Shown one piece after another: positions 2,743 to 61,555 of a stretch of 64,000 bases of DNA. The translations under genes were made by a program, and so were the position numbers. The notes beneath the pieces were generated by a model. The model was not told where the DNA came from, did no database searches, and worked only from the letters and a program-made list of their open reading frames with translations. Each line of letters starts with the position of its first letter. Positions within the stretch are counted from its first letter, which is position 1. Origin of the DNA: Levilactobacillus cerevisiae (GTDB lineage: Bacteria > Bacillota > Bacilli > Lactobacillales > Lactobacillaceae); the NCBI RefSeq assembly GCF_003946245.1, contig NZ_RHNN01000007.1:1-64000 (forward strand). Direction: 5' to 3'.

Positions 2743-2962
2743 GCGGGCTAAACTGCTATGAATACGCCTCCAGGAAAATCAAAATGGGACTGGAACGCTG
2801 GGGGTAGGACGTCTGAAGCCTGAAAGGCGGTCTTCAGACTCGCTTCGAACCGCAATGAACCGCGTTTCAAAGTCGCCATTCTCAAATTAACAGACCTAAT
2901 TTGAGAATCCCCCGGCTGAGCCCATTTTGATTTTCCTTGCGGCTCATACGCGTTTAGCCCGC
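2743..2962 (-). repeat. Type I structured intergenic element, copy A
   Basis: Occupies the gap between dinB and nrnA. Outer arms GCGGGCTAAAC (2743-2753) and GTTTAGCCCGC (2952-2962) are perfectly complementary. A second arm pair, AGGAAAATCAAAATGGG against CCCATTTTGATTTTCCT, extends the stem. Read on the minus strand it contains hairpin 1 (ATTCTCAAATTA/TAATTTGAGAAT), hairpin 3 (CTTTGAA/TTCGAAG) and hairpin 2 (TCTGAA-GACC-GCC...GGC-TTCAGA). The order and the single-stranded GACC bulge are the same as in the other type I copies. Confidence 0.75.
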
Positions 2963-3090
2963 ACTGATAAAATTAAATTTTTATCAATCGTCTTTAATTA
3001 ACCAACTAATTGGTATCAATCGGAGCTGCCAAATACTTGGCATGTTGTTAAACGTTTTTGCTTGCCCGACTTAATTCAATTTCAAGAGGG

Positions 3091-4209
3091 CTACTCTTCC
3101 TCATCCGACTCAAACAACGGTAACCGCACATTCTCAAACGTTTGTGCCGCCAGTCCTGTCAGGGTGATGCCCAGCAGGCGCACTTGCTCGTCATCTCCCG
3201 CCACACTGTGGTAAAGGTCTAAGGCCAAGTCATAGTAGACGTTGGCGTCATTGGCGATGAAATCTGTTTGAGTCACCCGCTTCGTGATGGTGTTGAAATC
3301 ACTGTCCCGGAGCTTTAACACCAACGTTTTGCCGTGGCGTTGTTTTTGCTTGACGGTAACGGCAACCATTTCCGCTAGCCGCTGGAGTTGTGCCTCGACC
3401 TCACCCGCGGACGATAGTGGTGGCCCGTACGTCCGCTCCTTGCCAATCGACTTGCGCTCCCGTTGATATTCAACCGGCCGTTCATCAATGCCGCGCACCC
3501 GTTGATAGAGCACGTACCCAAATTTACCAAAGTCGTGAATCAACTCTAATTGTGATTTCTGATACAGGTCGGCGCCCGTCAGGATTCCCAACTCGTGCAT
3601 CTTGGGAACCGTCTTCTTGCCCACGCCCCGGTAACGCTCGATTGGCAAAGCCATCAAGAAGTCGTGCGCGTCCTCAGGCAGAATCACACTGACCCCCACC
3701 GGCTTGCGAAAATCTGACGCCTCCTTGGCCAAGAACTTGCTGTACGAAATGCCGGTTGAACAGGTCAGATGGGTCTTCTCGAAAATTTCTACTTGAATCT
3801 CGTGGGCCACTTGAACCGCCGACTGAATCTGCTTTTTATTGGTCGTAATATCCAGGTAGGCTTCGTCAAAAGCCACCGTTTCAATCTTATCCGTGTACTC
3901 GTGGAAGATGGCGTGAATTTGATCCGAAATCTCCCGGTAGTGGGGAAAGTCAGGCGTTTTGAAGGTCGCATGCGGCGCCAGCTTAAAGGCCTCGTTGGCA
4001 TTCATGGCGGAGTGCACGCCCAACTGTCGGGCCACGTAATTCGCTGTCGTCACGACGCCCCGCCCGCCGGTGGTCCGGGGGTCACGGGCAATGATCAGCG
4101 CATGCCCTTTGAATTCAGGGTGGTCGCGCTCCTCAATCGACGCGTAAAAAGCATCCATATCGACGTGAATAATTTTTCGTTGCGTATACTTTTCCGGTAC
4201 CACGGCCAC
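3091..4209 (-). CDS. dinB: DNA polymerase IV (Y family)
   Basis: A 372-residue translesion polymerase that extends mispaired or lesion-blocked primers during the SOS response. Catalytic acidic residues are in VDMDAFYAS (D17, D19) and FDEAYLD (D115, E116). The palm, thumb and little-finger regions are all of normal length. The C-terminus contains RLPLF (362-366), resembling the QL(S/D)LF sliding-clamp binding motif. It stands alone between yajC and nrnA. Its promoter is a near-consensus sigma-A promoter with a LexA-like dyad in the spacer (see the separate entry), so damage induction is likely. Confidence 0.93.
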
Positions 4210-4243
4210 CCCTCCCTCACGTTTAACACCAACTATTAGTTAA

Positions 4244-4272
4244 ATTATACCCAAACAAACGTTTGTCTTCAA
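4244..4272 (-). promoter_or_regulatory. dinB promoter with LexA-like operator
   Basis: On the minus strand, TTGAAG (4267-4272) and TATAAT (4244-4249) are separated by exactly 17 bp. The spacer holds CAAAC-GTTT-GTTTG (4252-4265), a dyad matching the Gram-positive SOS box layout CGAAC-N4-GTTCG with symmetric G-to-A and C-to-T changes. LexA bound there would block RNA polymerase directly. Confidence 0.7.
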
Positions 4273-4338
4273 TCGAAAACGCTCCTAATTCCCAGGCAAT
4301 TCCCAACACCCCACCGTCGTAACCGCAAATTTTAGCCG

Positions 4339-4363
4339 AAAAAAAACGGCCTCAGGGAGACCG
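4339..4363 (-). terminator. Terminator of yajC
   Basis: Minus-strand hairpin CGGTCTC...GAGGCCG followed by TTTTTTTT, starting about 15 bp after the yajC stop codon. Confidence 0.85.
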
Positions 4364-4377
4364 AACTTTTTAACACA

Positions 4378-4827
4378 TTATTTAGCTGATTCGTCGTCAG
4401 TTTTTTCAGCAGGTTCGTCGCTTGCAGCGGCTTCGCTAGCTGGTTCTTCAGCGGCACTTTCAGCTGGTTGGTCGTCGCTAGCAGCTTCACTAGTGGCAGT
4501 CTCAGCAGCGGCTGGGGCCGTAACGGCTTGTGGTGCTTGGGAAGTTACTTGGGCAATGGCCCGTAAGTCAAAGACTAAGTAGATTCCGTCGCAATCCAAG
4601 GTTACAGTCTTGTCAGCGTCGTTGATTTCGTCGATCACACCGTGTAACCGGCCAATCGTGATGACGTGGTCGCCCTTTTTAAGTTCGCTCATCATGTCAC
4701 GATGCTTCTTTTGTTGCTTTTGTTGTGGACGTAACATCAAGAAATACATCAACACCAAGAAAACAACTAAAATCAGTAACGTTGAGTAACCGCCGGCAGC
4801 GGCACCGATCATTAAATTTTCGAACAC
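4378..4827 (-). CDS. yajC: Sec translocon accessory protein YajC
   Basis: A 149-residue single-pass membrane protein of the SecDF-YajC module that assists the Sec translocon. There is one transmembrane segment at about 14-33 followed by the family motif LRPQQKQQK (33-41) and a conserved cytosolic domain to about residue 95. The last 50 residues are almost entirely Ala, Glu, Ser, Asp and Pro, a low-complexity acidic tail that is longer than in typical 85-110 residue YajC proteins. It follows ruvB directly in the direction of transcription. In many Firmicutes queA and tgt lie between ruvB and yajC; they are absent here. Confidence 0.92.
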   Translation of the reverse strand: MFENLMIGAAAGGYSTLLILVVFLVLMYFLMLRPQQKQQKKHRDMMSELKKGDHVITIGRLHGVIDEINDADKTVTLDCDGIYLVFDLRAIAQVTSQAPQAVTAPAAAETATSEAASDDQPAESAAEEPASEAAASDEPAEKTDDESAK

Positions 4828-4960
4828 GTTTGTTCACCCCTTTATTTACTATCTATTGGACAACTTTACCAGAATCCAAGGAATCCGTCCAATTATTTCT
4901 AAAAATTCTTTGGATGTTCGGCATTATCGCCGATTTTCTGAAAATATTAGCCGTCTCGAC

Positions 4961-5986
4961 CTAAGATTGGCCCTCGGAATTAGGCAATGGTCGCCCGAGG
5001 TGCGCGTACCCCGTAGCCGTGACAACCCGCCCCCGAGCCGTTCGCTTGAGGTAACCGCGTTGGAGCAAGTAGGGCTCGTACATGGCCGCCACCGTTTCCG
5101 TTTCCTCACCGATGTTGGCCGCCAAGGTGTTCAAGCCAACCGGACCGCCATCGTAGTAGTCAACCATCGTGGATAGCAGCTTGATATCCGTGGCATCCAG
5201 TCCCGCGGCGTCCACCCGTAACAGGGTCAGCGCATGGTTCACAATCGCCAAGTCAATTTCGGTGTGGTCCGGCGAAACTTCTGCGAAATCCCGAATCCGT
5301 TTCAACAGGCGGTTCGCAATCCGTGGCGTGCCCCGCGAACGCAAGGCAATCTCGTGGGCCCCCTCAGTGGCAATCCGGGTGTTAAAAATATCCGCCGAGC
5401 GGGTCACAATTTCCTGTAAGTCCGCCGTTTCGTAGTAGGCCATGTGCTCCACAATTCCAAACCGATCACGCAGCGGCGCTGACAGTAAGCCGGCCCGCGT
5501 CGTCGCCCCAATCAGGGTAAATGGCGGCAACGGAAAATGGACGGGATGGGCAGTAGGCCCCTGACCGACCACGATGTCGATGTAGAAATCCTCCATCGCT
5601 GAATAGAGCATTTCCTCAACAATCTTGGGTAACCGGTGAATTTCATCAATAAATAAAATGTCACCCGGCTGGAGCTCGTTTAACAGGGCCACCAGGTCGC
5701 CTGGCTTTTCAATGGCCGGTCCGCTGGTCGTTCTGATATGAACGCCCATCTCATTGGCAATCACCATCGCTAGTGTCGTCTTCCCTAAACCAGGGGGGCC
5801 GTACAACAGGACGTGGTCTAACGATTCTTCCCGCTGTTTAGCCGCCTGAATGTAGACGGAAAGTTCGTGTTTGATTGGATCCTGGCCAATGTATTGGGCC
5901 AGTGTCTGGGGGCGCAGTGATTTTTCAATTGAATCTTCGTTGTCATCAGATGGTTCCGGTGACACGATCCGCTCATCATCAGCCAT
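4961..5986 (-). CDS. ruvB: Holliday junction branch migration ATPase RuvB
   Basis: A 341-residue AAA+ motor that drives branch migration of Holliday junctions together with RuvA. Walker A is GPPGLGKTT (63-71), Walker B is FIDEIH (112-117), and the GATTRAG sensor region precedes the arginine-finger segment LRDRFG. The C-terminal winged-helix domain is complete. The gene begins 20 bp after ruvA and is in the same transcription unit, driven by the LexA-like ruvA promoter. An acidic N-terminal extension of about 20 residues ([10 protein letters not shown]) is common in lactobacilli. Confidence 0.97.
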
Positions 5987-6006
5987 GAGTCAGCCTCCCT
6001 TCACAC

Positions 6007-6612
6007 TTATTCGGTCAGTAAACGCAGTCCTTCGCTGAGATAATCATTGGTCGATTGACCAGCAAATTTCCGAAGCTGGGGGGTCACTTTCTTAACCGCA
6101 GCAGCCTTGTAGCCTAACGCCGTCAAAGCCGCAATCGCATCGTCCAATTGTGGATCACCCTCACCCGTCGCGACTTCCTCGGGCGTGAACAACGTCCCAT
6201 CGTCAGCGGGTGCCAAGTCGTCCAACTTATTTTGCAAATCCAAAACAATTTGACCGGCCGTCTTCTTACCAATGCCCGGGAACTTCATCAAGAAACTGAC
6301 GTCGTTGGTCTTAATGGCCAGCATCAAGCCTTGGTGATCAGGGTTGGCCAGGATGGCGAGAGCGCTCTTGGGGCCAATCCCGTTAACGTTGATTAATTTC
6401 AAAAATAGTTGCTTCTCGGCAAAGTCCGCGAAGCCATACAGCGTCTGCGCTGAGTCGCTCACTGCCTGGTAAACGTAAATGGTTACCGCCGCGGTGCCTA
6501 CTGCGTAACGGTAAGGATTGGCGGTATTCACCAGGTAACCCACCCCGTTGACGTCCACGACCACGTGGTCCGGGTAGACCGCCGCAATCGTGCCATGAAG
6601 GTATTCGTACAT
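6007..6612 (-). CDS. ruvA: Holliday junction DNA-binding protein RuvA
   Basis: A 201-residue protein that binds four-way junctions as a tetramer and loads RuvB. The N-terminal OB-fold (1-65), the helix-hairpin-helix pair (NGIGPKSAL at about 76-84 and PGIGKKTA at about 111-118) and the C-terminal RuvB-contacting domain (150-201) are all present. Length is the family norm. A good ribosome binding site (AAAGGAGA) precedes the ATG at 6612. The promoter region carries a LexA-like dyad, so ruvAB is probably SOS-induced. Confidence 0.96.
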   Translation of the reverse strand: MYEYLHGTIAAVYPDHVVVDVNGVGYLVNTANPYRYAVGTAAVTIYVYQAVSDSAQTLYGFADFAEKQLFLKLINVNGIGPKSALAILANPDHQGLMLAIKTNDVSFLMKFPGIGKKTAGQIVLDLQNKLDDLAPADDGTLFTPEEVATGEGDPQLDDAIAALTALGYKAAAVKKVTPQLRKFAGQSTNDYLSEGLRLLTE

Positions 6613-6632
6613 GCCGGTTAATCTCCTTTAGG

Positions 6633-6660
6633 AAAACATATGTTTGCTTCGTAAATTGTA
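6633..6660 (-). promoter_or_regulatory. ruvA -10 region and LexA-like operator
   Basis: Minus-strand CAAAC-ATAT-GTTTT (6633-6646) closely follows the SOS box layout CGAAC-N4-GTTCG, and its ATAT centre equals that of the B. subtilis consensus CGAACATATGTTCG. It lies just downstream of a TACAAT -10 hexamer (6655-6660). No clear -35 hexamer is visible. Confidence 0.6.
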
Positions 6661-6681
6661 CCACACTTGCGCCCGCTTGTG

Positions 6682-6753
6682 GACCTGATTCCGCCTTGCG
6701 GTCTGACAGGACCCGATTCTGCCCGCGGTCTGGCGGGGTCTGATTCCACCTGC
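6682..6753. repeat. Short degenerate tandem repeat next to copy B
   Basis: Three imperfect units of about 25-28 bp, each containing a GATTC(C/T)(G/A)CC...GCGGT core, run in tandem between the ruvA promoter and type I copy B. No coding frame is supported. Confidence 0.4.
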
Positions 6754-6929
6754 GGTAGTCTAGGTACGCTTCACCCTGTGGGACCCCGTCTAAAGCCTGA
6801 GGAGCGGTCTTTAGACTCGGTTTTAAGCCTTGCTAAGCCCGCAAGTCTCAAAACGCGGTCCGTGCTGTAAGGCTGGGCAAAGATCGCCCAGTCTAACACC
6901 ACCTTCACAGGGTTCGGTACCTAACTACC
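6754..6929 (-). repeat. Type I structured element, copy B
   Basis: Outer arms GGTAGT-C-TAGGTAC (6754-6767) pair with GTACCTA-ACTACC (6917-6929), and ACCCTGTG pairs with CACAGGGT. On the minus strand it contains hairpin 1 (CTGGGC/GCCCAG), hairpin 3 (GTTTTGAG-ACT-TGC...GCA-AGG-CTTAAAAC) and hairpin 2 (TCTAAA-GACC-...GGC-TTTAGA). Stem sequences differ from copies A, C and G but remain complementary. Confidence 0.75.
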
Positions 6930-7084
6930 TCCGGCTCCATCAGGCCCCACCAGACTGCTACGCTTGTCGTTTTTTGTCAGACACAGCTGTCATAAATGCT
7001 TACCAATTCACGACAGCAAGCATGAACGACGCAATTTAAAATACATATTCGCCATAAATGTTCAACTAGAAAAACATAATAATA

Positions 7085-7285
7085 AAAACACGCGAATAGG
7101 TAGTCGACGCCGGAGGCAGCTAAGGAGCACACCTGTGTCGATGAAGTTAGTTGGCGTCCTTTGCCGACTTACTTCATGGGACGACTTTGAGACTGTGCTT
7201 TTCAGGCTCAAAGCGAGACCGAAGACCGCCCTTCGGCTTCGGTCAGTCCCCATAGGTGTAGTCCTTAGCTGCCACAAGCAACAGT
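7085..7285 (+). repeat. Type I structured element, copy C (first of a direct pair)
   Basis: Core 7115-7273. The outer stem GGCAGCTAAGGA (7115-7126) pairs perfectly with TCCTTAGCTGCC (7262-7273). Hairpin 1 is TGAAGTTAG...CTTACTTCA, hairpin 3 is CTTTGAG...CTCAAAG, and hairpin 2 is GACCGAA-GACC-GCC...GGC-TTCGGTC. About 190 bp from 7085 recur almost unchanged at 7496-7685. Confidence 0.8.
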
Positions 7286-7321
7286 TGGGAAACAGTTTCC
7301 CAGTCTGGAATAATCTTTGCT

Positions 7322-7470
7322 GGAGGCTGTCAGGTTCGGTACCTGTGTCGGTGGCGTTTGCTGCTGTTTTTTGGCAGCTTACGCCACGGGACGTACTTGG
7401 AAACTCGTTCTTTGAGGTTCCAAGTCGAGCCTGAAGACCGCCCTTTGGCTTCAGGCGTTCCTCAATCAAA
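7322..7470 (+). repeat. Type I structured element, partial copy C2
   Basis: Lies between copies C and D. Hairpin 1 (GGCGTTTGCTGC/GCAGCTTACGCC), hairpin 3 (CTTGGAA/TTCCAAG) and hairpin 2 (CCTGAA-GACC-GCC...GGC-TTCAGG) are intact. I find no matching right-hand arm of the outer stem, so this copy looks decayed at its edge. Confidence 0.65.
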
Positions 7471-7495
7471 ACCGACTCATTCTATTACAGAATTT

Positions 7496-7708
7496 AAAAA
7501 CACGCGAATAGGTAGTCGACGCCGGAGGCAGCTAAGGAGCACACCTGTGTCGATGAAGTTAGTTGGCGTCCTTTGCCGACTTACTTCATGGGACGACTTT
7601 GAGACTGTGCTTTTCAGGCTCAAAGCGAGACCGAAGACCGCCTTTTGGCTTCGGTCGGTCCCCATAGGTGTGGTCCTTAGCTGCCGCAGGCAACCCCAAC
7701 TACCTATT
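7496..7708 (+). repeat. Type I structured element, copy D, overlapping the mutL stop
   Basis: A near-identical direct repeat of copy C. Its core is 7527-7685. An extra outer arm, AATAGGTAGT (7507-7516), pairs with ACTACCTATT (7699-7708). That right arm covers the mutL stop codon (7704-7706), so the element reaches the last codon of mutL. Confidence 0.8.
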
Positions 7709-9734
7709 CTCCCCAGTCGTCGCCGGAGTGGTGTGGATCCTGAATCCGCTTGAACAGCTTCTCCAAGTCCTGATCCGTGAAATGCACCAGCACTGGCCGC
7801 CCGTGAGGACAGTTAAACGGATTTTCAGCCGTGGCTAACTTCACTAACAGTGCCCGCGCCTGTTGATCGTCCAAGTGATGATTGGCCTTGATGGCCCGTT
7901 TACAGCTCATCATGATGGCCGTCTTCTCACGAAAGGCCGCCACGGAAATCTTCCCGTCGTTGAGTACCCAATCAATCATTTCTTTAATGGTATCGGTCTC
8001 TTGACCGGCCTTGAACCAGGTTGGGTGTTCGTGCACGATGAAACTATTTGGTCCAAACGACTCGAGATGAATACCGACACTGCCCAGCGTTTCGATGTGG
8101 TTGGTCAGTTCCAACACATCGGTCGTCGGGTAATCGAGAACGATTGGCACCAGCAATTTCTGCTCGTCATCGCTGACCTCGCCGATCGCTTGCCGGTAAA
8201 ATTCATAGTTGACCCGTTCCTGCGCGGCGTGTTGGTCGACTAAATACAGCCCATCGTCCGCCTCCGCCAACAGGTAAGTCCCGTGCACTTGCCCCAGGTA
8301 CCGCAACTGTGGGAAACGCTGCGCTGGCGGCTCCGGTGCCCGTAAGTCAGCCTCCGGGAGGGGTTCTTGCTTCACCGGCGCACGCCCACCCAAGGGTGCC
8401 GCCACTTGTTCCGTTTGATATTTTTCATCAAATGCTTGAACAGCTGGCAACTGAAAATCGTGCTTATCATGGACAACCACTGGCTCGACCGGCACTTCCT
8501 CCGGCGTTTCCAATGGTTGTGGTCCAGCAGCGGGCGTCGGCGTGGTCTCCGCCGGTTCGGACGCCGCCGAAGACTTCTGCGCGACGGTATCTGTTGGCGC
8601 CGCACTTTCTTCTGGCTGCGGCTCGGGGACCGTCGTTCGGGCCGACATCTCGTACTTAGCTGAGACGTCGTTTAACGCCATCGTCAGTTGATCCGTCGAG
8701 CGGGTCTCCCGCGTTTTCGTGGGAATTTCGTCAAAGACATCCGGAATTAAATTTTCCTGTGAAAGCCGTTTGAACACCGTGTCCTGAATCAATTGGGTCA
8801 GTTCGGGTTCCTCACTGATCCGGACTTCCTGCTTGGTTGGGTGAACGTTCACGTCGACCAGCAAGGGGTCCATCTTAATATCCAACACGGCCAACGGATA
8901 GCGGCCGACCATTAACTTTGAGCCGTAACCTGCCACCAAGGCCTTACTCAACTGAAAATTGTGAATGTACCGGCCGTTCAGCAGCAGGGAAATGTATTGG
9001 CGACTCGCCCGCGTCAGTTCGGGTAAGCTCACGTAGCCGCTCACCTGAAAGTCGGGATTCTTGCCGTTGATGGCCACCATCTTCCGGGCGCTCTGCACGC
9101 CGTAGATGCCGGCAATCACCTGTTGGAGGTCTCCCCGTCCGGTCGTTCGTGTTAACTCCCGACCGTTGTGCACCAAAGAAAAGGCAACGTTGGGGTAGCT
9201 CAAGGCCAACCGGTTCACAATGTCCGTGATTCGTGCCAACTCGGTCGCTGGCGATTTCAAATACTTCAAGCGCGCAGGAACGTTGCCGAAGAGGTCCTTC
9301 ACCGTGACCGTGGTGCCCTTCCGTGCGGCGGCCGCAGTGTGTTCCTTGATAATGCCGCCCACGTTGTGAATCAAGGTCCCCACGCCACCGGTGGAAGTCG
9401 TCAGGGTCACGTCGGCCACGGACGCAATACTAGGCAGCGCCTCACCCCGGAAGCCCAGTGACTTGATTCGAAAGAGGTCCCGCCGATCCGTAATCTTGCT
9501 AGTGGCGTGGCGTTTGAAAGCCATTTCGCTATCTTCATCCGCAATGCCGTCGCCATCATCAACCACGGAAATCCGCTGTAACCCAGCCTCTTCAACCGTG
9601 ATGTCAATCTGCTGGCTGTGGGCATCGACTGCGTTTTCCACCAGTTCCTTGACCACGGATGCCGGTCGTTCAACGACTTCACCCGCGGCGATTTGGTCGG
9701 CTAAGACCGACGCTAGTTCATGAATTTTGGCCAT
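7704..9734 (-). CDS. mutL: DNA mismatch repair protein MutL with endonuclease motif
   Basis: A 676-residue mismatch-repair protein that couples MutS recognition to strand incision. The N-terminal GHKL ATPase shows the motifs DQIAAGEVV (14-22), DDGDG (60-64) and GFRGEAL (95-101). A Pro/Glu/Ala-rich linker covers about 350-460. The C-terminal domain holds DQHAAQER...YE, the nicking-endonuclease motif of MutL proteins from bacteria lacking MutH, and a CPHGRP metal-binding motif near residue 639. I chose the ATG at 9734, preceded by GGAAGGG, over an upstream TTG. It follows mutS by 41 bp in one operon. The stop codon lies inside the outer stem of type I copy D. Confidence 0.95.
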
Positions 9735-13482: not shown

Positions 13483-13634
13483 GAGATTCCGACTGCTGTG
13501 AGGACCGCCTGCGGCCTGAGGGGCGGTCCTCCGGCTCGGTTTGAAGCCTGGCACAAACCGCCAGTCTCCAAACACGTCCCACGCTGTAAGCTGGTTCCCA
13601 GCTAACACCGTCGACACAGCTGCCTCCATCTCTG
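13483..13634 (-). repeat. Type I structured element, copy E
   Basis: Read on the minus strand: AGAGATG...GCTGTG outer arm, hairpin 1 (GTGTTAGCTGG/CCAGCTTAC), hairpin 3 (GTTTGGAG-ACT-GGC...GCC-AGG-CTTCAAAC), hairpin 2 (GGACCGCC/GGCGGTCC), then CACAGC and GAATCTCT closing the outer stem. It is the same subtype as copies I, J, L and M. Confidence 0.75.
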
Positions 13635-13654
13635 TCCTCCTTCGGTTACGGTTG

Positions 13655-13730
13655 ATTTTCACCGTGACATTGGTGTGCACATCGCTGGAATGACGGCGTT
13701 CATCCGCAATAATTGGTGACAATCTACGTA
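13655..13730. repeat. Linker module between type I copies E and F
   Basis: Contains ATCGCTGGAAT, matching the ATCGCTGGACTGGCAAC block beside copy K (about 47503-47520). Its reverse complement (GTTGCCAGT(C/T)CAGCGA) lies beside copies I (33005), L (50325) and M (61350). It therefore appears to be a conserved flank of the element. Confidence 0.5.
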
Positions 13731-13744
13731 GGCGGGAGTGAACC

Positions 13745-13888
13745 AAATTTAGGCTCAGCCGTGGGATTTTCCATGTGGTCTTCTTGGAAAATGGCGACTT
13801 TGAAACGCGGTCCGTGCGGTCCAAAGCGAGCAGGCAGACCGCCTCACAGGCTGCCGGCGTCCTACCCACAGCGTTCCAGCCTAAATTT
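13745..13888 (+). repeat. Type I structured element, copy F
   Basis: Outer stem AAATTTAGGCT (13745-13755) pairs perfectly with AGCCTAAATTT (13878-13888). Hairpin 1 is ATTTTCCA/TGGAAAAT, hairpin 3 is CTTTGAAACGC...GTCCAAAG, and hairpin 2 is GGCA-GACC-GCC...GGC-TGCC. The right flank CGAACGGTAAGCCGGCAG recurs at 23268 and 47702. Confidence 0.8.
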
Positions 13889-23228: not shown

Positions 23229-23254
23229 TCTCGTTGAAAATCCTTAAATTCCCA

Positions 23255-23284
23255 CCTAAATTTGGCGCACGGTAAGCCGGCCAG
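23255..23284 (+). repeat. Relict fragment of a type I element
   Basis: CCTAAATTTGG and ACGGTAAGCCGGC match the right-hand outer arm and flank of copies F (13880) and K (47691). The rest of the element is absent. The remainder of 22996-23338 shows only the ABC operon terminator. Confidence 0.5.
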
Positions 23285-25646: not shown

Positions 25647-25910
25647 AAAAAACGCCCTCCTAGGTCCAAAGACCTAAGAGGACGATCACATCGTGGTTCC
25701 ACCTCTGTTTGTTTTCATATCACTACGAAAACCTCAGCGAGTTGCTAGCAACTCCAGCGATAACGGGCTACCCCGGATCATCTTACTAACTTCAGACAAT
25801 CAACTCACAGATGTGTTTCGACTAGTTAAGTTCGCCCGTTTCCATCGTCGGGGCTTTCTGCAGAAACCTTAACCACTCTACTCTTCCGTTCAACGTTTTT
25901 CATTCATTGA
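25647..25910 (-). promoter_or_regulatory. T-box riboswitch upstream of the amino-acid ABC operon, specifier CAC
   Basis: A full T-box leader on the minus strand. Stem I has an AGTA strand in GGAAGAGTAGAG and the distal CAGAAAGCC...GGGCGAA region. The opposite strand of the specifier loop is GAA-A-CAC-A (CAC at 25813-25815), the same register as GAA-C-GTA-G in the valS leader. CCCGTTATC follows. The T-box AGAGGTGGAACCACGA is at 25691-25706, and the terminator with a T-run is at 25647-25683. CAC specifies histidine. Confidence 0.88.
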
Positions 25911-26132: not shown

Positions 26133-26295
26133 GACTACCAGACAGAACCTGGTGTCGCGTGGACTTAGTCGAGTGATTTTCTCGATTTAGTCCACTGGCC
26201 GATCTTAAAGATAGGCATTCTTTGCATAGCTTTAAGTCGCCCTGGAGACCGCTTTTCGGCTCCAGGTCTGCCCCACCAGGTGGCGTCTGGTAGTC
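26133..26295 (+). repeat. Type I structured element, copy G (best preserved)
   Basis: Outer stem of two perfect parts: GACTACCAGAC (26133-26143) with GTCTGGTAGTC (26285-26295), and ACCTGGTG (26147-26154) with CACCAGGT (26274-26281). Hairpin 1 is GTGGACT...AGTCCAC (26159-26195), hairpin 3 is CTTAAAG...CTTTAAG (26204-26236), and hairpin 2 is CCTGGA-GACC-GCT...GGC-TCCAGG. TCGGAGAC flanks both ends of the element (26128 and 26294). Confidence 0.82.
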
Positions 26296-33051: not shown

Positions 33052-33240
33052 GTAACCGGAGGCGGACAGAGATGCAGGCAGCTGTGTCGACGGCGTTAGC
33101 TGAGTGATTTTCTCAGGTTACACCGTGGGACGCGTTTGAAGACTGTCGGTTTTGGACAGGCTTCAAACCGAGCCGGAGGACCGCTCTTTGGCCGCAGGCG
33201 GTCCCCACAGCAGACGGAATCTCAGGCAGCCGCAGGTAAC
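33052..33240 (+). repeat. Type I structured element, copy I
   Basis: AGAGAT (33068-33073) and GCTGTG (33081-33086) pair with AATCTC (33218-33223) and CACAGC (33206-33211). Hairpin 1 is GTTAGCTGAG...CTCAGGTTAC, hairpin 3 is a perfect GTTTGAAG-ACT-GTC...GAC-AGG-CTTCAAAC, and hairpin 2 is GGACCGC...GGCGGTCC. It closely resembles copies E and M. Confidence 0.78.
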
Positions 33241-36039: not shown

Positions 36040-36120
36040 TTGAATCAATTCCTTTCTTGTCTGCCTGAAGTTAATGAGTCCGGAGTAAATCCCAGGATCG
36101 CGTTGTATCTCCAAAATTAT

Positions 36121-36246
36121 ATTGCTGAAACGTGGAACAAAAGGCAGCTGGCTTCGCTTAAAACTGATAGCCAAATAATCCAAACCCAGGATTATCCGGC
36201 TATCAGCCTTAATGCTCACCAGCTAACCGCCTTCTGTCCCACTCTT
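36121..36246. repeat. Type II structured repeat, copy Q, inside the valS leader
   Basis: GAAACGTG, GCTTAA...TTAATGC and CCCACTCT are shared with copies N and P. Stem AAGGC-A-GCTGG pairs with CCAGC-TAACC-GCCTT. The apical hairpin is CTGATAGCC...GGCTATCAG with AATAATCC/GGATTAT inside, different in sequence from the other copies. Confidence 0.65.
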
Positions 36247-36264: not shown

Positions 36265-36499
36265 CAAAAAAATCCCCATCCTAAAAAATTAGGACGAAGA
36301 TTCTTCGCGGTACCACCTAAATTGGGCGTTTATGCCCCACTTAACTTCTTTGTTAACGGAGAGTGCTCCGGTTCGGACTTACTATTGGTTCAGTCCGACA
36401 GCTCGCAAGCTACGTTCACGGGAGCGCACCCACCGGTTTCCAGCAATTCCGGCTCTCTTCTGGGGTGCAACTGACGCTACTGACTTGTTCAACGCTACT
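36265..36499 (-). promoter_or_regulatory. T-box riboswitch of valS, specifier GTA
   Basis: Full T-box leader on the minus strand: AGTA strand in CAAGTCAGTAGCG, distal AGAGAGCCGG...GGTGGGTGCG region, specifier loop GAA-C-GTA-G (GTA at 36411-36413), T-box AGGTGGTACCGCGA (36305-36318) and terminator CCTAATTTTTTAGGATGGGGATT with T-run (36265-36302). GTA is a valine codon, consistent with valS downstream. Confidence 0.93.
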
Positions 36500-36505
36500 T
36501 GCCAT

Positions 36506-47555: not shown

Positions 47556-47700
47556 CAAATTTAGGCTCAGCCGTGGGATTTTCCATGTGGTCTTCTTGGA
47601 AAATGGCGACTTTGAAACGTGGGGTGAGCGGTTCAAAGCGCGGTTCAAGCCCGCCCTTCGGCTTGGAACGTCCTACCCACAGCGTTCCGGCCTAAATTTG
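47556..47700 (+). repeat. Type I structured element, copy K
   Basis: Outer stem CAAATTTAGGC (47556-47566) pairs with GCCTAAATTTG (47690-47700). Hairpin 1 is ATTTTCCA/TGGAAAAT, hairpin 3 is CTTTGAA/TTCAAAG, hairpin 2 is GTTCAA-GCCC-GCC...GGC-TTGGAAC. Left flank ATCGCTGGACTGGCAACG (47503-47520) is shared with other copies. Between 47720 and 47890 nothing else is recognised. Confidence 0.8.
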
Positions 47701-52190: not shown

Positions 52191-52202
52191 CGTAATTTCG
52201 TC

Positions 52203-55422: not shown

Positions 55423-55484
55423 GAAATATGTGGCCTTTGAAACGTGTTACGCGGGGCAGACTCCTGCGCTTAACCCCGGTTCAG
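55423..55484. repeat. Type II repeat, half copy O
   Basis: GAAATATG...GGCC...TGAAACGTG...TACGCGGGGC...GCGCTTAAC matches the left half of copy P, 145 bp away. The right half is missing, so the stem cannot form. Confidence 0.55.
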
Positions 55485-55574: not shown

Positions 55575-55703
55575 GCAGCCTCTGAAACGTGCTACGCGGG
55601 GCAACTGGTTCCGCTTAACAACGCTAAGCAAAGCCCCCAAGCCCGGGGGCCTTCACTTAGCGCCGTTAATGCTCGCCAGTTAACCGCCCCGCTCCGCACT
55701 CTA
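55575..55703. repeat. Type II structured repeat, copy P
   Basis: GCGGGGC-AA-CTGG pairs with CCAG-TTAACC-GCCCCGC, and GCTTAAC pairs with GTTAATGC. The apical hairpin is CGCTAAG...GCCCCC...GGGGGC...CTTAGCG. The right block CCGCACTCTA is identical to copy N. Stem sequences differ from copies N and Q. Confidence 0.65.
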
Positions 55704-55706
55704 TAC

Positions 55707-55743
55707 AAAAAGCCGCCCAACCCTTTTCAGAGTTGAAGCGGCC
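55707..55743 (-). terminator. Terminator of the GcvH-like gene
   Basis: Minus-strand GCCGCTTCAAC...GGTTGGGCGGC hairpin and TTTTT. Confidence 0.87.
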
Positions 55744-55761
55744 CCTATTATTCAGCGAGGA

Positions 55762-56064
55762 TTAGTCTTCTTGAACGTCGACAAACCAAGCTGCATCTGT
55801 ATCGCTACCGTTTAAAGCATCGAAATCGTTAGCCAAAGCTGGGTTAACGGCCGCTACCTTACCGGAAACGGGACTAGGAATGTCAGAAACCGCCTTGTCA
55901 GCTTCAACGCTCAACAGGTTCTCACCCTTCTTCACGTCGTCGCCAACGGCTGGTAACTTGGCAAACTTAACAGTACCTAATTCGTCTTGGCCCTCGGTGG
56001 TCAAACCAATTCGCGTACCATCGTTAACTGCTTTAGTCCAGAAGTACTTTACCATTTCACTCAT
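55762..56064 (-). CDS. GcvH-like lipoyl-carrier protein
   Basis: A 100-residue protein with the glycine-cleavage H fold. The lipoylation lysine is expected at K57 in VEADKAVSDIPSPVSG. It is shorter than true GcvH (about 127 residues), resembling GcvH-L proteins, which in some streptococci and staphylococci partner with a lipoate ligase, macrodomain protein and sirtuin. No glycine-cleavage genes (gcvPT) or such partners are in this window. Possible role: lipoyl-relay carrier (inference). It lies directly downstream of rodA. Confidence 0.85.
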   Translation of the reverse strand: MSEMVKYFWTKAVNDGTRIGLTTEGQDELGTVKFAKLPAVGDDVKKGENLLSVEADKAVSDIPSPVSGKVAAVNPALANDFDALNGSDTDAAWFVDVQED

Positions 56065-56079
56065 AAATATAATCTCCCT

Positions 56080-57285
56080 CTACTTAAACGATTCGTTACG
56101 ACTAAACATGTAACTCTTATAATGATACCGCATTGACATGATTAATCCAATACCTATCAGGTTACCAATCAGTGCAGATCCCCCTTGACTAACAAAAGGT
56201 AATGGAATACCGGTCAATGGGAGTAGCCCAATACTCATCCCAATGTTTTCAAAAACATGGAAGAGAATCATCATGATAACCCCAGTTGAAATGTAGGCGT
56301 AGAAGACGTTCTTCGTATCAAACGTCACCCGAATCATTTGGTAGATCAGCAGGAAGTACAGGAAAATCAGAATACAGCCACCGATGAACCCAAAGTTTTC
56401 ACCGATTACTGAGAAAATCATATCTGATTCCCGCACCGGCACATACACGTGCGAAACGTTGAAGCCCGTCCCGGTGATGCCACCAGAACCAATGGCCTTC
56501 ATACTTTGCCACAACTGATACCCGTTGTTCGAGGTATCTTGGGAGGGATGCAGCCAGGTATCAACCCGGGAGAATTGGTAGGCTTGGAACCCAAACTTTT
56601 CCAAAATCTTCCGTCCGGCATCCGTCGTAACCAATGCCAGTGCCGTACCACCAACGACCGCAATTGCCCCAAAGGCTGGCGCAATAATTTTCCAAGTGAT
56701 CCCAGAAACCAGGATTACCCCACCCACGATGGCGAAGAACACCAACATGGTCCCAAAGTCATTTTGGAGTTTTAATAAGATTGGAATTGGCGCCGTCCAC
56801 AAGATCAGTTTACCAATCAATGCCCAGTCAGTACGCATGGTATGAATCGGATTGGCATTATTGTGTTCCGTCACCACCCGCGCCAGCATCAAGATGAAAG
56901 CTGGCTTCATGACTTCAGAAGGTTGGAAGGTCAACGATCCAATTGCAAACCAACTCCGGGCACCCGTGTTAATGTAGTACGCCCGACTGTAGAAGACCAA
57001 CACCGCCAGCAGGAGGAATATGCCCAGCCCGTACAGCAGCGGTGCGACTTTCCACAGTTGCTCTGAATCAAATTGCATAATGATAATGATGGCGATGGTC
57101 CCAATCACATACCAAGCGATTTGCGAGATCACAGCCGACGTAATACTGGTCGCACTACTATCATGATTCGCCGCCACGTAGATTGAAGCCAGCCCAATCA
57201 GCGCCAACATGAGGACACAAAAGATGATTCCCCAGTCGATGCGTGATTCCGCCTCGCCCCTTTTTTCTGTCGCATTCTTTGCCAA
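56080..57285 (-). CDS. rodA: SEDS peptidoglycan polymerase, RodA type
   Basis: A 401-residue polytopic SEDS glycosyltransferase with about ten transmembrane helices. It polymerises glycan strands for the elongasome, with a class B PBP partner. The segments TGARSWFAIGSLTFQPSEVMKP (from 'TGARSW', about 118) and GLLPLTGIPLPFVSQGGSAL (about 355) are family hallmarks. I prefer RodA to FtsW because of the mbl gene just upstream and the rod shape of the organism. It lies between DUF2969 and the GcvH-like gene. Confidence 0.9.
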   Translation of the reverse strand: MAKNATEKRGEAESRIDWGIIFCVLMLALIGLASIYVAANHDSSATSITSAVISQIAWYVIGTIAIIIIMQFDSEQLWKVAPLLYGLGIFLLLAVLVFYSRAYYINTGARSWFAIGSLTFQPSEVMKPAFILMLARVVTEHNNANPIHTMRTDWALIGKLILWTAPIPILLKLQNDFGTMLVFFAIVGGVILVSGITWKIIAPAFGAIAVVGGTALALVTTDAGRKILEKFGFQAYQFSRVDTWLHPSQDTSNNGYQLWQSMKAIGSGGITGTGFNVSHVYVPVRESDMIFSVIGENFGFIGGCILIFLYFLLIYQMIRVTFDTKNVFYAYISTGVIMMILFHVFENIGMSIGLLPLTGIPLPFVSQGGSALIGNLIGIGLIMSMRYHYKSYMFSRNESFK

Positions 57286-57327
57286 AATGATTGCTCCTTA
57301 ATTCAAACTAAGTTTTGATTTCAATTA

Positions 57328-57364
57328 TAAAGGCCGAAGTGAAATTCGACGTTTCACCCCGGCC
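57328..57364 (-). terminator. Terminator of the DUF2969 gene
   Basis: Minus-strand GGCCGGGGTGAAA...TTTCACTTCGGCC hairpin and TTTAT. Confidence 0.78.
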
Positions 57365-57381
57365 AACTTTACCAAAATTTA

Positions 57382-57606
57382 TTAACCGCGGTGCAAGTGA
57401 TAGTCCTTTAAGAGCAACTCGACACCTTCGTCAACGGATTTTACGCGGTAAACGTCTCCGTCGTTCAATTGGGCTTCTAAGCGATCTTCCACTGGTGTCA
57501 CAGTGCCAATCGTTTCGTCGCCAATCTTGAGGACGGACATGGTGCCACCGTCTGGGAGCTTTTGTTCATCAACTTTTACTTGTACAGATTTTTCTCGTTT
57601 GCTCAT
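57382..57606 (-). CDS. DUF2969 family small protein
   Basis: A 74-residue soluble protein of the DUF2969 family, found in lactobacilli and relatives. The central segment IGDETIGTVTPVEDRLEAQL and the C-terminal KSVDEGVELLLKDYHLH are the family pattern. No function known. It lies 12 bp after yidD and before a terminator, in the mbl-yidD-DUF2969 unit. Fold likely alpha/beta with two strands. Ribosome binding site AAAGGAGA precedes the ATG. Confidence 0.85.
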   Translation of the reverse strand: MSKREKSVQVKVDEQKLPDGGTMSVLKIGDETIGTVTPVEDRLEAQLNDGDVYRVKSVDEGVELLLKDYHLHRG

Positions 57607-57618
57607 GCCAACTCTCCT

Positions 57619-57921
57619 TTATTTGCTGGGGGATTCTGGATGTTCTTCGTCTAACTTCATGGCCTGGCGGTAAGCTTGTTCAGCCGCCACGTTCCGTCGT
57701 AAGGAAAAATGATCGGGTACCGGATCCACGCCGCCCCGCACAAACGGGTGACACCGTAGAATCCGCGCGATACCCATCAAACCGCCCTTGAACGCACCGT
57801 GTTGTGCCAACGCCTGCAACATGTAATTGGAACAGGTCGGATAATACCGGCAGGTTGGCGGAAAGAGCGGTGAAATCCACCGTTGGTATCCGCGAACCAG
57901 CCAAGTTAAAATGTGGCGCAA
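57619..57921 (-). CDS. yidD: Membrane protein insertion efficiency factor YidD
   Basis: A 100-residue peripheral membrane protein helping YidC-dependent insertion. The family motif [17 protein letters not shown] (about 22-38), the two Cys residues and [13 protein letters not shown] (about 57-69) are clear. Start is a TTG at 57921 with AAAGGGGG upstream. It follows mbl by 27 bp and precedes DUF2969 by 12 bp. Length is slightly above the usual 70-90 residues because of an acidic C-terminal tail. Confidence 0.93.
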
Positions 57922-57948
57922 CGCCAGGCCCCCTTTTTCTAACGCGTC

Positions 57949-58953
57949 CTAGTTGTTTTCTTTAGCCGTCTTGGTATCCATGTGTTCCAAGAGCACACCA
58001 GCACCCTTAGCCACGTTGTCCAGTGGGTCTTCAGAAATGATGACTGGCACCGTCAACCGTTCGGAGAAGAGCTTGTCGATACCATCGAGCAAGGCCCCTC
58101 CACCAGTCAGCATGATACCCCGATCAATGATGTCGGCAGCCAATTCTGGTGGTGTCGTTTCCAACACGGCCATGGCTGCGGCAACAATTTGATCCACGGA
58201 GTCATGGATAGCAATTTCAACTTCGGCAGCGTTGATGGTCGTCGTGGTTGGCATCCCGCTAACGGAGTCCCGGCCACGAACGTCCATCGTCTTTTCTTCG
58301 TTGCCAGGTTCTGGGTAAGCTGTCCCAATCTTAATCTTGATGGTTTCAGCCGTTCGTTCCCCAATAATCAAGTTGTGATTGTGCTTTAGGTAATTAACAA
58401 TCTCAGCGTTCATCCGGTCACCAGCAACCCGAATAGAACGACTAGAAACAATGTCTCCTAACGAAAGGATGGCAATGTCACTGGTCCCACCACCCATGTC
58501 GATAACCATGTTACCGCTAGGCTTAAAGATGTCCATGCCAGCACCCAACGCAGCCACTTTAGGTTCTGCTTCGAGGTAAACCTTGGCACCACCGGATTTT
58601 TCGGCAGCCTGAATAATGGCCTTCCGTTCAATCTCGGTGATGTTCGTTGGCGCACAGATCATGATGTTTGGCTTAGATAAGAAGCCCTTCACACTTAATT
58701 TGTTGATGAAATAGGAGAGCATGGCTTCGGTAATGTCGAAATCAGAAATGACCCCATCCTTCAACGGACGAATCGCCCGGATATTACCAGGTGTCCGACC
58801 CACCATTCGGTAGGCTTCGGAGCCCACTGCTAATACCTTATCAGTCTTTGTGTCGATTGCTACGACTGATGGTTCATTTAATACGATTCCCTTGCCGACA
58901 ACGTAGATTAAAACGTTCGCCGTACCTAGGTCAATGCCAATATCTTTCGCCAT
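57949..58953 (-). CDS. mbl: Actin-like rod-shape protein (Mbl/MreB paralogue)
   Basis: A 334-residue second MreB-family actin. Phosphate motifs IDLGTANV (about 6-13) and MGGGTSDIA (about 163-171), and the adenosine motif LTGGGALL (about 288-295) are present. It differs from the mreB gene at 29287 by many substitutions (for instance the start MAKDIGIDLG rather than [12 protein letters not shown]). Position next to murA and the atp operon is that of mbl in bacilli. Promoter with extended -10 at 58998. Confidence 0.92.
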   Translation of the reverse strand: MAKDIGIDLGTANVLIYVVGKGIVLNEPSVVAIDTKTDKVLAVGSEAYRMVGRTPGNIRAIRPLKDGVISDFDITEAMLSYFINKLSVKGFLSKPNIMICAPTNITEIERKAIIQAAEKSGGAKVYLEAEPKVAALGAGMDIFKPSGNMVIDMGGGTSDIAILSLGDIVSSRSIRVAGDRMNAEIVNYLKHNHNLIIGERTAETIKIKIGTAYPEPGNEEKTMDVRGRDSVSGMPTTTTINAAEVEIAIHDSVDQIVAAAMAVLETTPPELAADIIDRGIMLTGGGALLDGIDKLFSERLTVPVIISEDPLDNVAKGAGVLLEHMDTKTAKENN

Positions 58954-58997
58954 TCTTATGCGTCCTCCTGAATTTAAATGCCAATTTTCAACATTTC

Positions 58998-59006
58998 ATT
59001 ATAACA
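58998..59006 (-). promoter_or_regulatory. Extended -10 promoter of mbl
   Basis: Minus-strand TGTTATAAT, preceded by TA as at mreB. The -35 is weak (TTTAGA at 17 bp). Confidence 0.5.
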
Positions 59007-59089
59007 TAAACTACGTGAACTCTAAATGCTTTCTCCGGCTCTTACCGAATTCGCAAATATTTACGCAGCATCACCCATTCATGCGTAAC

Positions 59090-59113
59090 AAAAAGGCGGC
59101 ATCACTGCCACCC
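59090..59113 (-). terminator. Terminator of murA
   Basis: Minus-strand GGTGGCA...TGCCGCC hairpin and TTTTT, just after the murA stop codon. Confidence 0.82.
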
Positions 59114-59122
59114 CGCTAAATA

Positions 59123-60430
59123 CTAATTATTAACGTGTGCGTTTTTCAAAACAACCGCATCGTTATCCGGTACAGAAACCCGTTTCACTTCTGCACCAAG
59201 GGCTGCTAACTTCTTGTGGAAGTCGTAGTAACCCCGGTCTAAGTACTTCAAGTTCGTCACTTGGGTGTACCCTTCAGCAACCAATCCCGCCAGAACCAGG
59301 GCCGCCGCAGCACGTAAATCAGTTGCAGCAACTTCAGCACCGTTAAAGTCGGTCGGTCCGTGCATCACGACTGTCCGGCCGTTCACTTGGTACTTAGCGT
59401 TCATGCGCCGGAGTTCTTCCAGATGCATGAAGCGGTTCTCAAAGACCGTTTCAGTCATAGTGCTGGTTCCCTCTGCGGCTAACTGCAAGATGGTCATTTG
59501 TGGTTGCATATCCGTTGGGAACCCAGGATATGGTAACGTTTTCACGTCAGTTGGCTGTAATTTCTCAGGGCCAATCACGCGAATGCCAGCAGGTTCTTCA
59601 GTTACCTGAACACCCATTTCTTGTAATTTAGAGATTAAGGGTTTGTTGTGTTCCACGATACCGTCTTGAATTAAGACGTTTCCGTGAGTTAATGCAGCAC
59701 CAACCATGAAGGTACCAGCTTCGATTCGGTCCTGAACCACACTGTGTTCAGTGCCGTGCATCTTCTCAACACCGTCAATCCGCAAGGTTTCCGTCCCAGC
59801 ACCGCGAACGTGCGCACCCATTTTGTTCAGGATGTTAGCAAGATCGACAATTTCTGGTTCACGGGCAACGTTATCAATCACGGTTGTCCCCTGAGCCAAG
59901 CAGGCGGCCATCAGGATATTCTGAGTTGCACCCACGCTAGGGAAATCTAAGTAGATATGTGCACCCTTCAATTGATCAGCAAAGGCTTCAATGTAGCCAT
60001 CATGCTGTTCAATTCGGGCACCCAAAGCTTCTAAGCCTTTCAAATGCAGGTCGATTGGCCGCGTCCCAATGGCACAACCACCAGGCAAAGCCACTTTGGC
60101 GTGACCTAAGCGGGCTAAGAGTGGCCCCATCACAACAATTGATGCCCGCATCTTGGAGACATATTCAAACGGTGCCTCACTGGATACTTGCTTGGTCGCA
60201 TCAATTGTCACTTCTCGTTTAGCTTCATCAAAATCGACGCCTAAATTCAAGAAGCGTAAGACTTTATTCATCGTGTATACATCAGACAAAACCGGAACAT
60301 TTGCTAAGTGAGTGAGTCCGTCTTGCGCAAGAATCGAGGCTGCTAAGATTGGCAGTACGGCATTCTTGGCGCCTTCAATGTGGACCACACCAGTTAAGCG
60401 GTTCCCACCATGAACGATAATTTTTTCCAT
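59123..60430 (-). CDS. murA: UDP-N-acetylglucosamine 1-carboxyvinyltransferase MurA
   Basis: A 435-residue enzyme for the first committed step of peptidoglycan synthesis, transferring enolpyruvate from PEP to UDP-GlcNAc. K22/N23 are in GAKNAVLP. The fosfomycin-reactive cysteine is in [11 protein letters not shown] (C118), so the enzyme is not of the Cys-to-Asp resistant kind. Location beside ywzB and atpC is the usual one for the principal MurA of lactobacilli. A second murA copy is common in Firmicutes but is not in this window. Confidence 0.96.
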
Positions 60431-60457
60431 GGGATACCTCCAGAGATTTTTATGGGT

Positions 60458-60688
60458 CTACCGTAACAGATAGCCCAGGTTACGAACGTTATCGATGAAG
60501 TCTAAAAAGAACGAACTACAGCCAAATCCAACGGCCACCGACAGCATCACGATTAAGACGCGCGATTGTCGGGGGTAAAACGTCATTAATCGCTCAATGT
60601 GTAACGCGGAAATCGCCCAAAAAGCGAGTCCAATAAAAAACAAGTGACTGATGATCGTTAATATTCCCTGTAGTCCTATGAGTGACAT
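60458..60688 (-). CDS. DUF1146 (YwzB) small membrane protein
   Basis: A 76-residue protein with two hydrophobic segments (about 7-26 and 44-64). The motifs LTIISHLFFIGLAFWAI and FYPRQSRVLIVMLSVAVGF are the YwzB/DUF1146 pattern. Function unknown; conserved between the ATP synthase operon and murA in Firmicutes. It lies 27 bp before murA and likely shares its transcript. No ribosome binding irregularity. Confidence 0.9.
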   Translation of the reverse strand: MSLIGLQGILTIISHLFFIGLAFWAISALHIERLMTFYPRQSRVLIVMLSVAVGFGCSSFFLDFIDNVRNLGYLLR

Positions 60689-61002
60689 TCCCTCAATCCT
60701 TCCTAAACATTCTCACTAACTATAGCATAAAATTTCGTCCTTGTCCTTGAGATTCCCATAAAATCGGCGTTTGTAATATTACATTTCTTCTAATTCACCG
60801 GATGAACTGAACAAACCATTTGTTAAATTAATGTTTGAACTACTTAACTGACCAGTCACAACATCATTGAACGGCTACTGTTTGCCCAGCGTTCATACCA
60901 TAAACGAACTGCACTTTGCGCAAAAAATCACGACCGTATTATTTCGTACTAAGCTAGGTGAATGACCACAACTAAAGCGGAAAAATAGTTGAATCCCATT
61001 TT

Positions 61003-61188
61003 ATGCAGGAAAAAGTATCGCGAATTCTACGAAATCTGCTCCAACCGCAGGAAGCTCAAGGTATTGCGGACAAACTCAGAACGATTGCCACTGAATATTT
61101 GGGGGTCGTGCCCGCTGATGGTCAGTCACAAGGTAACCACACATTGAAAGTTAAAATACAAACTTCCCCTCTACCCAGCAATCAGTGA
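61003..61188 (+). CDS. Doubtful small ORF in the atpC-ywzB gap
   Basis: A 61-codon frame (MQEKVSRILRNLL...) with reasonable amino-acid composition and helical character, but no good ribosome binding site and no recognised family. It may be a gene remnant or chance. The surrounding 60689-61350 has no other feature I can support. Listed only so that this stretch is not overlooked. Confidence 0.2.
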   Translation: MQEKVSRILRNLLQPQEAQGIADKLRTIATEYLGVVPADGQSQGNHTLKVKIQTSPLPSNQ

Positions 61189-61344
61189 GAACACTAAAAG
61201 TAGCATTGTCTAAACCGACCGAATTACCGTTCACCAGCTTTAAGCTAGAACGTCGTGGACACGATACAGTACATCTGTGAGACAGTCCTCCCCCCCACGG
61301 CTCAGATCAAAATTAACACATACACTACAAGAAGGCCTGCAAAC

Positions 61345-61555
61345 AAACGTTGCCAGTCCAGCGATACTAACATCAATTTCACGTTAAACAATCAATCGTA
61401 ACCGGAGGAGGGCAGAGATGGAGGCAGCTGTGTCGACGGCCTTACCTGAGCGAACTTCTCAGGTTAAGCCGTGGGATGAGTTTGGAGACTAGCGACTTTT
61501 GACAGGCTTCAAACCGAGCCAGGGGACCGCCTCCCAGGCCGCAGGTGGCAACCAC
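61345..61555 (+). repeat. Type I structured element, copy M
   Basis: Begins with flank GTTGCCAGTCCAGCGA and AACCGGAGGAGGGCAGAGATGG. Hairpin 1 is TTACCTGAG...CTCAGGTTAAG, hairpin 3 is GTTTGGAG...CTTCAAAC, but hairpin 2 is cut short: GGCCGCAGG runs straight into the tail TGGCAACC. The roughly 40 bp with CACAGC and GAATCTC are lost, as expected from recombination between two GCCGCAGG copies. Confidence 0.7.

Follow-up and report, generated by a model that had tools for sequence, protein, structure and literature searches.

The window analysed here, the first 64,000 nucleotides of contig NZ_RHNN01000007.1 of Levilactobacillus cerevisiae, carries multiple copies of a structured repeat, here called an arm, in which an outer stem encloses three hairpins. 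Covariance modelling, covariation statistics and the comparison of loci across related genomes lead us to posit, with good confidence, that these repeats are the inner arms of non-autonomous transposons resembling miniature inverted-repeat transposable elements (MITEs), whose fold has been kept and whose likely mover is an enzyme of the IS4 family of insertion sequences (ISs). A complete unit would be non-coding and mostly about 540 bp long, running from CTAAAGGTTGAAA through a minus-strand arm, a short centre and a plus-strand arm to the terminal repeat again. It would insert between genes with duplication of a 7-9 bp target. An IS4-family transposase provided in trans probably moves it, since the terminal repeat found on IS4-family remnants in related bacteria is identical. 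Decay through internal deletion, loss of one arm and loss of the termini would then yield the single arms and fragments that dominate the set in the window, and each arm would fold on one particular strand into three hairpins preserved by compensatory change.

A three-hairpin fold with covariation and strand bias

An earlier note on this DNA had described an intergenic repeat of fixed layout on both strands, and extraction and folding of the window copies agree with it on the architecture as well as on the strands. Read 5' to 3', an arm consists of the outer stem, hairpin 1, GG(G).CG, hairpin 3, (G)CGAG, hairpin 2, GTCC..CC and the closing outer arm, with an A·G mismatch in hairpin 3 and a one-sided GACC bulge in hairpin 2. 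Several features are new beyond that description: arms come in two subtypes, Q (CAGCCGTGGG, hairpin 1, then GGCGAC) and P (TGTGTCGAYGG, hairpin 1, then GGGACGA); two further covarying pairs (CG/CG, TA/TA, TG/CA) and a one-base bulge lie beneath hairpin 3; an inner stem, GGGAC/GTCCC or GG/CC, encloses hairpins 3 and 2; and neighbouring arms are divergent. A covariance model, a check that the note had proposed, was built from 10 Q copies of the window's genome outside the window (R1; 125 positions, 45 pairs), and it finds copies in the window (12, at E<=6e-4), in the genome and in relatives.

Covariation, a further check proposed there, is strong when 21 Q-type copies are aligned with plain MAFFT (37 pairs, 500 shuffles); an alignment that combined the two subtypes placed hairpin 1 wrongly and was left out. 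Paired cells reach 96.0% against a shuffled mean of 79.2%, 20 of the 37 pairs change on both sides, and the covariation score is 0.499 against 0.173 for shuffled alignments, values that none of the 500 shuffles equalled. The weakest measure, further pair types, was matched by 2 of 500 shuffles, and in controls with slid pairings the paired cells drop to 29-51%.

The pairs also favour the fold of one strand. When 147 unique copies are aligned to the model, Watson-Crick cells number 5967, G·T cells 231, A·C cells 46 and others 225. G·T exceeds A·C in 32 of 40 informative pairs and falls below it in 8 (sign test 1.8e-4), although two pairs alone contribute about 90 of the G·T cells and related copies are not independent. 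The model alignment may itself favour G·U, but the MAFFT alignment concurs, with a G·T:A·C ratio of 28:5. In the outermost, locus-specific arms the bias is absent (G·T 26, A·C 36), and we take the excess in the core together with its absence there to mean that the core is held on one strand, the outer palindromes looking like a product of events at the DNA level. Thus the earlier reading of a folded nucleic acid under selection has gained support from both the covariation against shuffles and the excess of G·T over A·C on one strand.

Covariation of this kind could in principle arise without selection, through template switching in long imperfect palindromes, by which a change in one arm is transferred to the other, an explanation compatible with a mobile element. 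A DNA-level process of that sort would give outermost arms that are complementary without strand bias, as observed, and it would also fit the close sister copies, in which 75 of 96 changed pairs remain paired, with 39 double against 57 single changes. We nevertheless consider it unlikely, given the G·T excess of the core and the persistence of the conserved GACC bulge and of the A·G and T·T mismatches, which such copying would erase.

The outer flanks of single-arm copies at seven loci (L040, L043, L046, L053, L059, L062 and L065) were seen to have two complementary sides, locus-specific and without strand bias; these represent either palindromic targets or palindromes grown via template switching. 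Across 31 copies, the flank arms of 14 lie above the 95th percentile of swapped arms, and so form extended palindromes.

Complete units, their ends and the IS4 family

Neighbouring copies at most 600 bp apart are divergent in 48 cases, tandem in 17 and convergent in none. This count draws on 171 of 172 hits of one set, the omitted hit being cut at a locus end and having no neighbour within 600 bp, and on 20 of 51 hits at mutSL-ruvAB loci, with orthologous and overlapping loci entering more than once; the other 31 mutSL-ruvAB hits, read by eye, have no convergent neighbours within that distance. Together with the divergent pair found in eight of nine loci of genome G003, this arrangement led us to suspect a composite unit. 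The earlier note had treated each copy as a stand-alone element, a view that missed both the pairing and, in the window, the terminal repeat adjoining the copy at 13756.

Complete units are most clearly seen in G343, a genome from another genus of the family, where similar copies lie at many places. Seven of 11 aligned G343 loci have the whole P-centre-Q block in common, the others being internal-deletion derivatives, and CTAAAGGTTGAAA and its inverse flank the block. In the loci first examined, this 13-mer has seven exact occurrences, at six distinct places, against 0.05 for scrambled motifs. G343 as a whole holds 150 matches at <=1 mismatch, 73 of them forward and 77 reverse, where the reversed-pattern control gives 0 and 6, and 44 of the 83 exact 13-mers listed form forward/reverse pairs less than 700 bp apart, 19 of the 22 pairs spanning 478-556 bp. 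The minus arm lies left and the plus arm right in 20 of 20 G343 units (L253-L272).

Target duplications were scored in units with both terminal repeats recognised. Outside the ends, exact direct repeats are present in 19 of 21 G343 units (7 bp in eight, 8 bp in ten, 9 bp in one), and the remaining two match at 7 of 8; at exactly 7 bp the units' own flanks give 8 of 21, as against 2 of 420 for swapped flanks. These units therefore have what characterizes a MITE: terminal inverted repeats at both ends, no transposase inside (in the 546-bp unit at L215 the longest open reading frame (ORF) lying wholly within is 56 aa, and five ORFs over arms have no Pfam match above cut-off) and, as described below, termini in common with an IS, albeit one of which no intact copy was among the loci seen. 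The earlier note had left it undecided whether the repeat acts as RNA, as a mobile element or in chromosome organisation; of these, the mobile element is the part now supported, through the transposon-like complete units of G343, to whose inner arms the window copies are homologous.

Two side observations concern the same genome. At the G343 loci L212-L222 and L253-L272, alongside many units of mostly about 540 bp, are terminal-repeat pairs of 200-320 bp that resemble deletion derivatives. Two further terminal repeats 3.7 kb apart were considered as the ends of an IS and rejected, as there is no transposase between them; the intervening genes we take to be glycosyltransferase-like and deacetylase-like, recognised by eye rather than by a family scan.

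The link to the IS4 family comes from a 288-aa open frame adjoining an exact 13-mer in the window's genome, which matches the IS4 family transposase model NF049925 at 286 bits (cut-off 250) and Pfam DDE_Tnp_1. An exact 13-mer adjoins this frame, at 64-100% identity, in six of six loci opened, the source locus included (L283, L284, L285, L286, L290, L291), and at L284 it stands at both ends, 1509 bp apart. Relatives at 60-80% identity are found in five plasmid records, two of which were opened, and three more distant plasmid copies, about 51% identical and carrying a transposase annotation, have CTGAAACTTGAAAG at their ends, two of the three together with direct repeats of 8-9 bp. The likeness between units and IS thus lies in the 13-bp terminal repeat beside the transposase frame and in the 8-9 bp duplications of the distant copies. 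The difference is that the IS, in the one copy for which both ends were seen, measures about 1.5 kb and contains transposase pieces, and that R1 detects neither P nor Q arms within ten IS loci scanned, although L285 and L286 have one just outside. We infer that an IS4-family enzyme moves the units and that copies lacking termini descend from units that had them.

As a separate observation, the IS4-family copies at L283 (1420-2400), L284, L285 and L286 are truncated or in pieces while non-coding units are numerous, so that these genomes appear to have lost the IS4 parent and kept its non-coding offspring.

Several observations weigh against this view of the arms as parts of IS4-moved transposons. 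A unit bounded by terminal repeats is directly seen for a minority of copies, mainly in G343, and a terminal-repeat pair of 201 bp there (L251) has no arm. The window's genome does hold 31 13-mers against 8 in the control, but its two candidate units, 489 and 530 bp, have one arm each and imperfect duplications, and in a first sample the 13-mer (<=2 mismatches) lay on the outer side of 1 of 79 of its own copies and 1 of 66 others. In the window's genome, Q copies have an abrupt 5' end at CGGGCTAAAC, as judged from 40 whose anchors are recognisable, and none of the 12 in which both ends could be recognised shows a target duplication. None of the close IS4 copies seen is intact, L283 being truncated and L284 matched in three pieces and having no clean target duplication, and G343 itself has no match to the IS4-family frame. 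A promoter-like site was looked for in the L215 unit and none was found, so that any RNA product is presumptive. Finally, a transposon moving by cut-and-paste of double-stranded DNA is not obviously in need of a strand-specific fold.

The sharp ends of Q copies without target duplication make another route possible for them, and single-arm copies may be either decayed units or movers by such a route. A bolder proposal, which we put forward tentatively and would not yet favour, is that the paired divergent, strand-specific structured nucleic acids, as RNAs or as single-strand DNA forms, are working parts of the transposon, needed for its spread or for taming its effects on the host, and that arms also spread alone by this second route, with no target duplication.

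Distribution, neighbouring genes and competing explanations

In the window's genome (3.38 Mb, 82 contigs), BLASTN with one copy gives 44 matches and R1 at least 150 copies, all with E<3e-8, a lower bound in that 150 of 2289 candidates were scored. In a search of 58 genomes of relatives, R1 matches 32, all of them among the 35 Levilactobacillus genomes (the window's own included), and none of the 23 from other families of the order. A separate search of 301 genomes within the family, under strict filters and with at most 11 candidates per genome scored, gives matches in 57, which belong to 10 of the 40 genera sampled. In G003, all 150 scored copies lie on the 2.99-Mb contig and none on four small contigs. 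Neither plasmids (72,556 records, some of them from Levilactobacillus) nor phages (50,697 records) matched any of the four query stretches used at E<=1e-5.

Copies cluster by genome. Some on different contigs are 96.5% identical over 201 nt, and when 70 Q cores drawn from five genomes are placed in a tree, the nearest neighbour comes from the same genome in 59 of 70, with 12 changes of genome label against a shuffled mean of 31.5; the grouping is weaker in G020 (6/12) and G001 (3/7).

That the repeat is not a catalogued family, as the earlier note had suspected, agrees with our searches. Rfam 15 at gathering score, run over the whole window, yields only two T-box leaders and nothing over the arms, and a permissive scan of three loci gives seven weak matches, none over the core and none near its gathering score, which rules out a known Rfam RNA. 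The open-access PMC literature yielded no described family with this layout, although absence cannot be proven in that way.

A coding origin is likewise ruled out. The earlier note had placed the repeats in no gene, and for the most part this is so: over the stretches of the window's genome studied, ORFs of at least 200 aa contain none of 88 unique copies, and five of the 88, all in the window, fall inside ORFs of 130-178 aa spanning one or more arms. Three of these ORFs were scanned without a Pfam match, and five ORFs over arms, the longest 177 aa, have none above cut-off.

Folded single strands that are recognised as such, with a preference for one strand and a structure kept while sequence varies, are known from repetitive extragenic palindromic (REP) sequences and bacterial interspersed mosaic elements (BIMEs) with their REP-associated tyrosine transposases (RAYTs), and from integron attC sites. 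If the arm were a single-stranded DNA element of this kind, recognised by a REP/IS200-type or integrase-type enzyme, with the IS4 units as secondary passengers, the favoured strand would be expected, as would the sharp-ended single-arm Q copies without target duplication and their frequent setting in extended palindromes (14/31). We judge this quite unlikely. Y1 transposase genes do not follow the copies: 23 of 35 congeners have one, yet G012, G002, G030 and G032 lack Y1 despite 55-60 scored copies each, Y1 is present in G021 and G031, which are free of copies, and R1 finds no arm in four Y1 loci. The 150 scored copies of the G003 chromosome show no strand bias between replichores, taken as the halves of contig 1 (43:31 and 38:38). 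Both a link to Y1 transposases and a replication-strand bias are thereby rejected, and terminal repeats with exact target duplication in 19 of the 21 units checked speak for transposition of the unit. The arms further differ from REP/BIME and attC in being much longer and multi-branched and in belonging to units with terminal repeats and target duplications.

The setting of the copies bears on whether they serve neighbouring genes. Among 79 copies of the window's genome with both neighbours, 62 lie between co-directional, 8 between convergent and 9 between divergent genes, and in the co-directional gaps 41 are antisense and 21 sense. At the mutSL-ruvAB loci of 34 relatives, none of 51 R1 hits overlaps the nine genes, which occupy 369,924 of 444,114 bp (Pfam backs dinP, ruvB, mutL, mutS, ymdB and rny; nrnA, ruvA and yajC are our own presumptive labels), and 33 of 48 copies lie on the gene strand. 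The mutL-mutS gap, 38 bp in the window, is 17-29 bp in 20 of the 34 congeners; six others have gaps of 53-220 bp and no hits, and the eight with gaps of 392-616 bp all carry arms. Comparison of close congeners at the mutSL-ruvAB loci and at one C45 locus gave no clean empty site, the candidates being too diverged, having internal deletions or differing by a whole gene. At the mutSL-ruvAB loci (L131-L164), the distance from the yajC-like gene to ruvB is about 2.3-3.2 kb in 11 of the 34 congeners as against 93-223 bp in the others, probably owing to extra genes.

That the arms are host regulatory RNAs or mRNA processing sites, folding in a neighbour's transcript and kept for host use, is improbable: strong covariation on one strand, the many copies inside operons such as mutL-mutS and the gene-strand excess in relatives would suit such a role, but the antisense majority between co-directional genes leaves no orientation rule, presence at the same gap varies among congeners, copies cluster by genome, and complete units have terminal repeats and target duplications. 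We infer instead that the fold serves the transposon-like element itself, as RNA or as single-stranded DNA, rather than the neighbouring genes.

Among known systems, the arms would best be filed with small IS-mobilised elements, of which BOX and RUP of Streptococcus pneumoniae are nearest (PMC3049150). Like the arms' units, BOX and RUP are described there as short, non-coding and present in many intergenic copies, with IS-similar terminal repeats, clustering, insertion into one another and predicted stem-loops (PMC3049150, PMC10969869). The units described here differ in that one unit pairs two homologous three-hairpin arms, divergently placed, with extensive strand-biased covariation of the stems across genera, and in their IS4-family partner and 7-9 bp target duplications; BOX is modular (boxA/boxB/boxC) with ISSpn2 as proposed partner (PMC3049150), an architecture that on reading sets it apart from the arms. 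The excerpted text of a survey of stem-loop repeat families has L. johnsonii as its only lactobacillus (PMC2267715).

At least 150 copies of a family missing from Rfam thus occupy the intergenic space of the window's lactobacillus, and in some relatives the mutS-mutL gap. The G343 units, with their clear target duplications, offer a clean system for asking what makes a transposon retain an elaborate fold on one strand. They also carry a warning, in that a multicopy bacterial element can covary strongly owing to function at the level of the element rather than of the host.

Copies and other repeats in the window

The window holds the 12 copies found by R1, and further copies and fragments recognised from repeats and sequence:

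2797..2918, minus strand: Q-type arm (core); R1 89.1 bits, E 2e-19; the outer stem reaches the CGGGCTAAAC...GTTTAGCCCG ends
6775..6913, minus strand: weak copy of an arm, divergent from its neighbour at 7130; R1 38.8 bits, E 2.5e-7
7130..7256, plus strand: P-type arm; R1 80.1 bits; repeat D1
7345..7466, plus strand: P-type arm, central of three tandem copies; R1 68.4 bits
7542..7668, plus strand: P-type arm; R1 82.9 bits
13495..13622, minus strand: P-type arm, half of a divergent P/Q pair with the copy at 13756; R1 49.2 bits
13756..13872, plus strand: Q-type arm, partner of the copy at 13495; R1 84.0 bits
13957..13969, minus strand: terminal inverted repeat CTAAAGGTTGAAA, exact, at the right end of the 13495-13872 P/Q pair
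23249..23281, plus strand: fragment, 3' outer arm only of a Q-type copy; repeat D10
26146..26280, plus strand: arm copy, subtype not assigned; R1 52.0 bits
32634..32731, minus strand: Q-type arm with most of hairpin 2 gone, divergent neighbour of the copy at 33079; R1 68.5 bits
33079..33211, plus strand: P-type arm; R1 50.5 bits
43241..43377, minus strand: P-type copy with internal deletion; inverted repeats I3, I8 and I13, and sequence
47568..47683, plus strand: Q-type arm; R1 81.6 bits
50325..50458, plus strand: P-type copy with internal deletion; repeats D8, D11 and D12, and sequence
61425..61559, plus strand: P-type arm with damaged hairpin 2; R1 24.7 bits, E 6e-4

In the P/Q pair at 13495-13872 the centre between the two cores measures 133 nt, and a left terminal repeat is not recognisable there. 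The 200-nt stretches around the copies at 7130 and 7542 are 97% identical.

The two T-box leaders that exceed the Rfam gathering score lie at 25675-25902 and 36287-36501 (minus strand), the latter upstream of a 948-aa ORF. A different short repeat, D6, is dispersed at 191-237, 36118-36164, 55430-55476 and 55575-55621 with the pattern GAAACGTG.TAC...GGGCAG...CGCTTAA and 62-77% identity over 47 nt, and may represent another element family.

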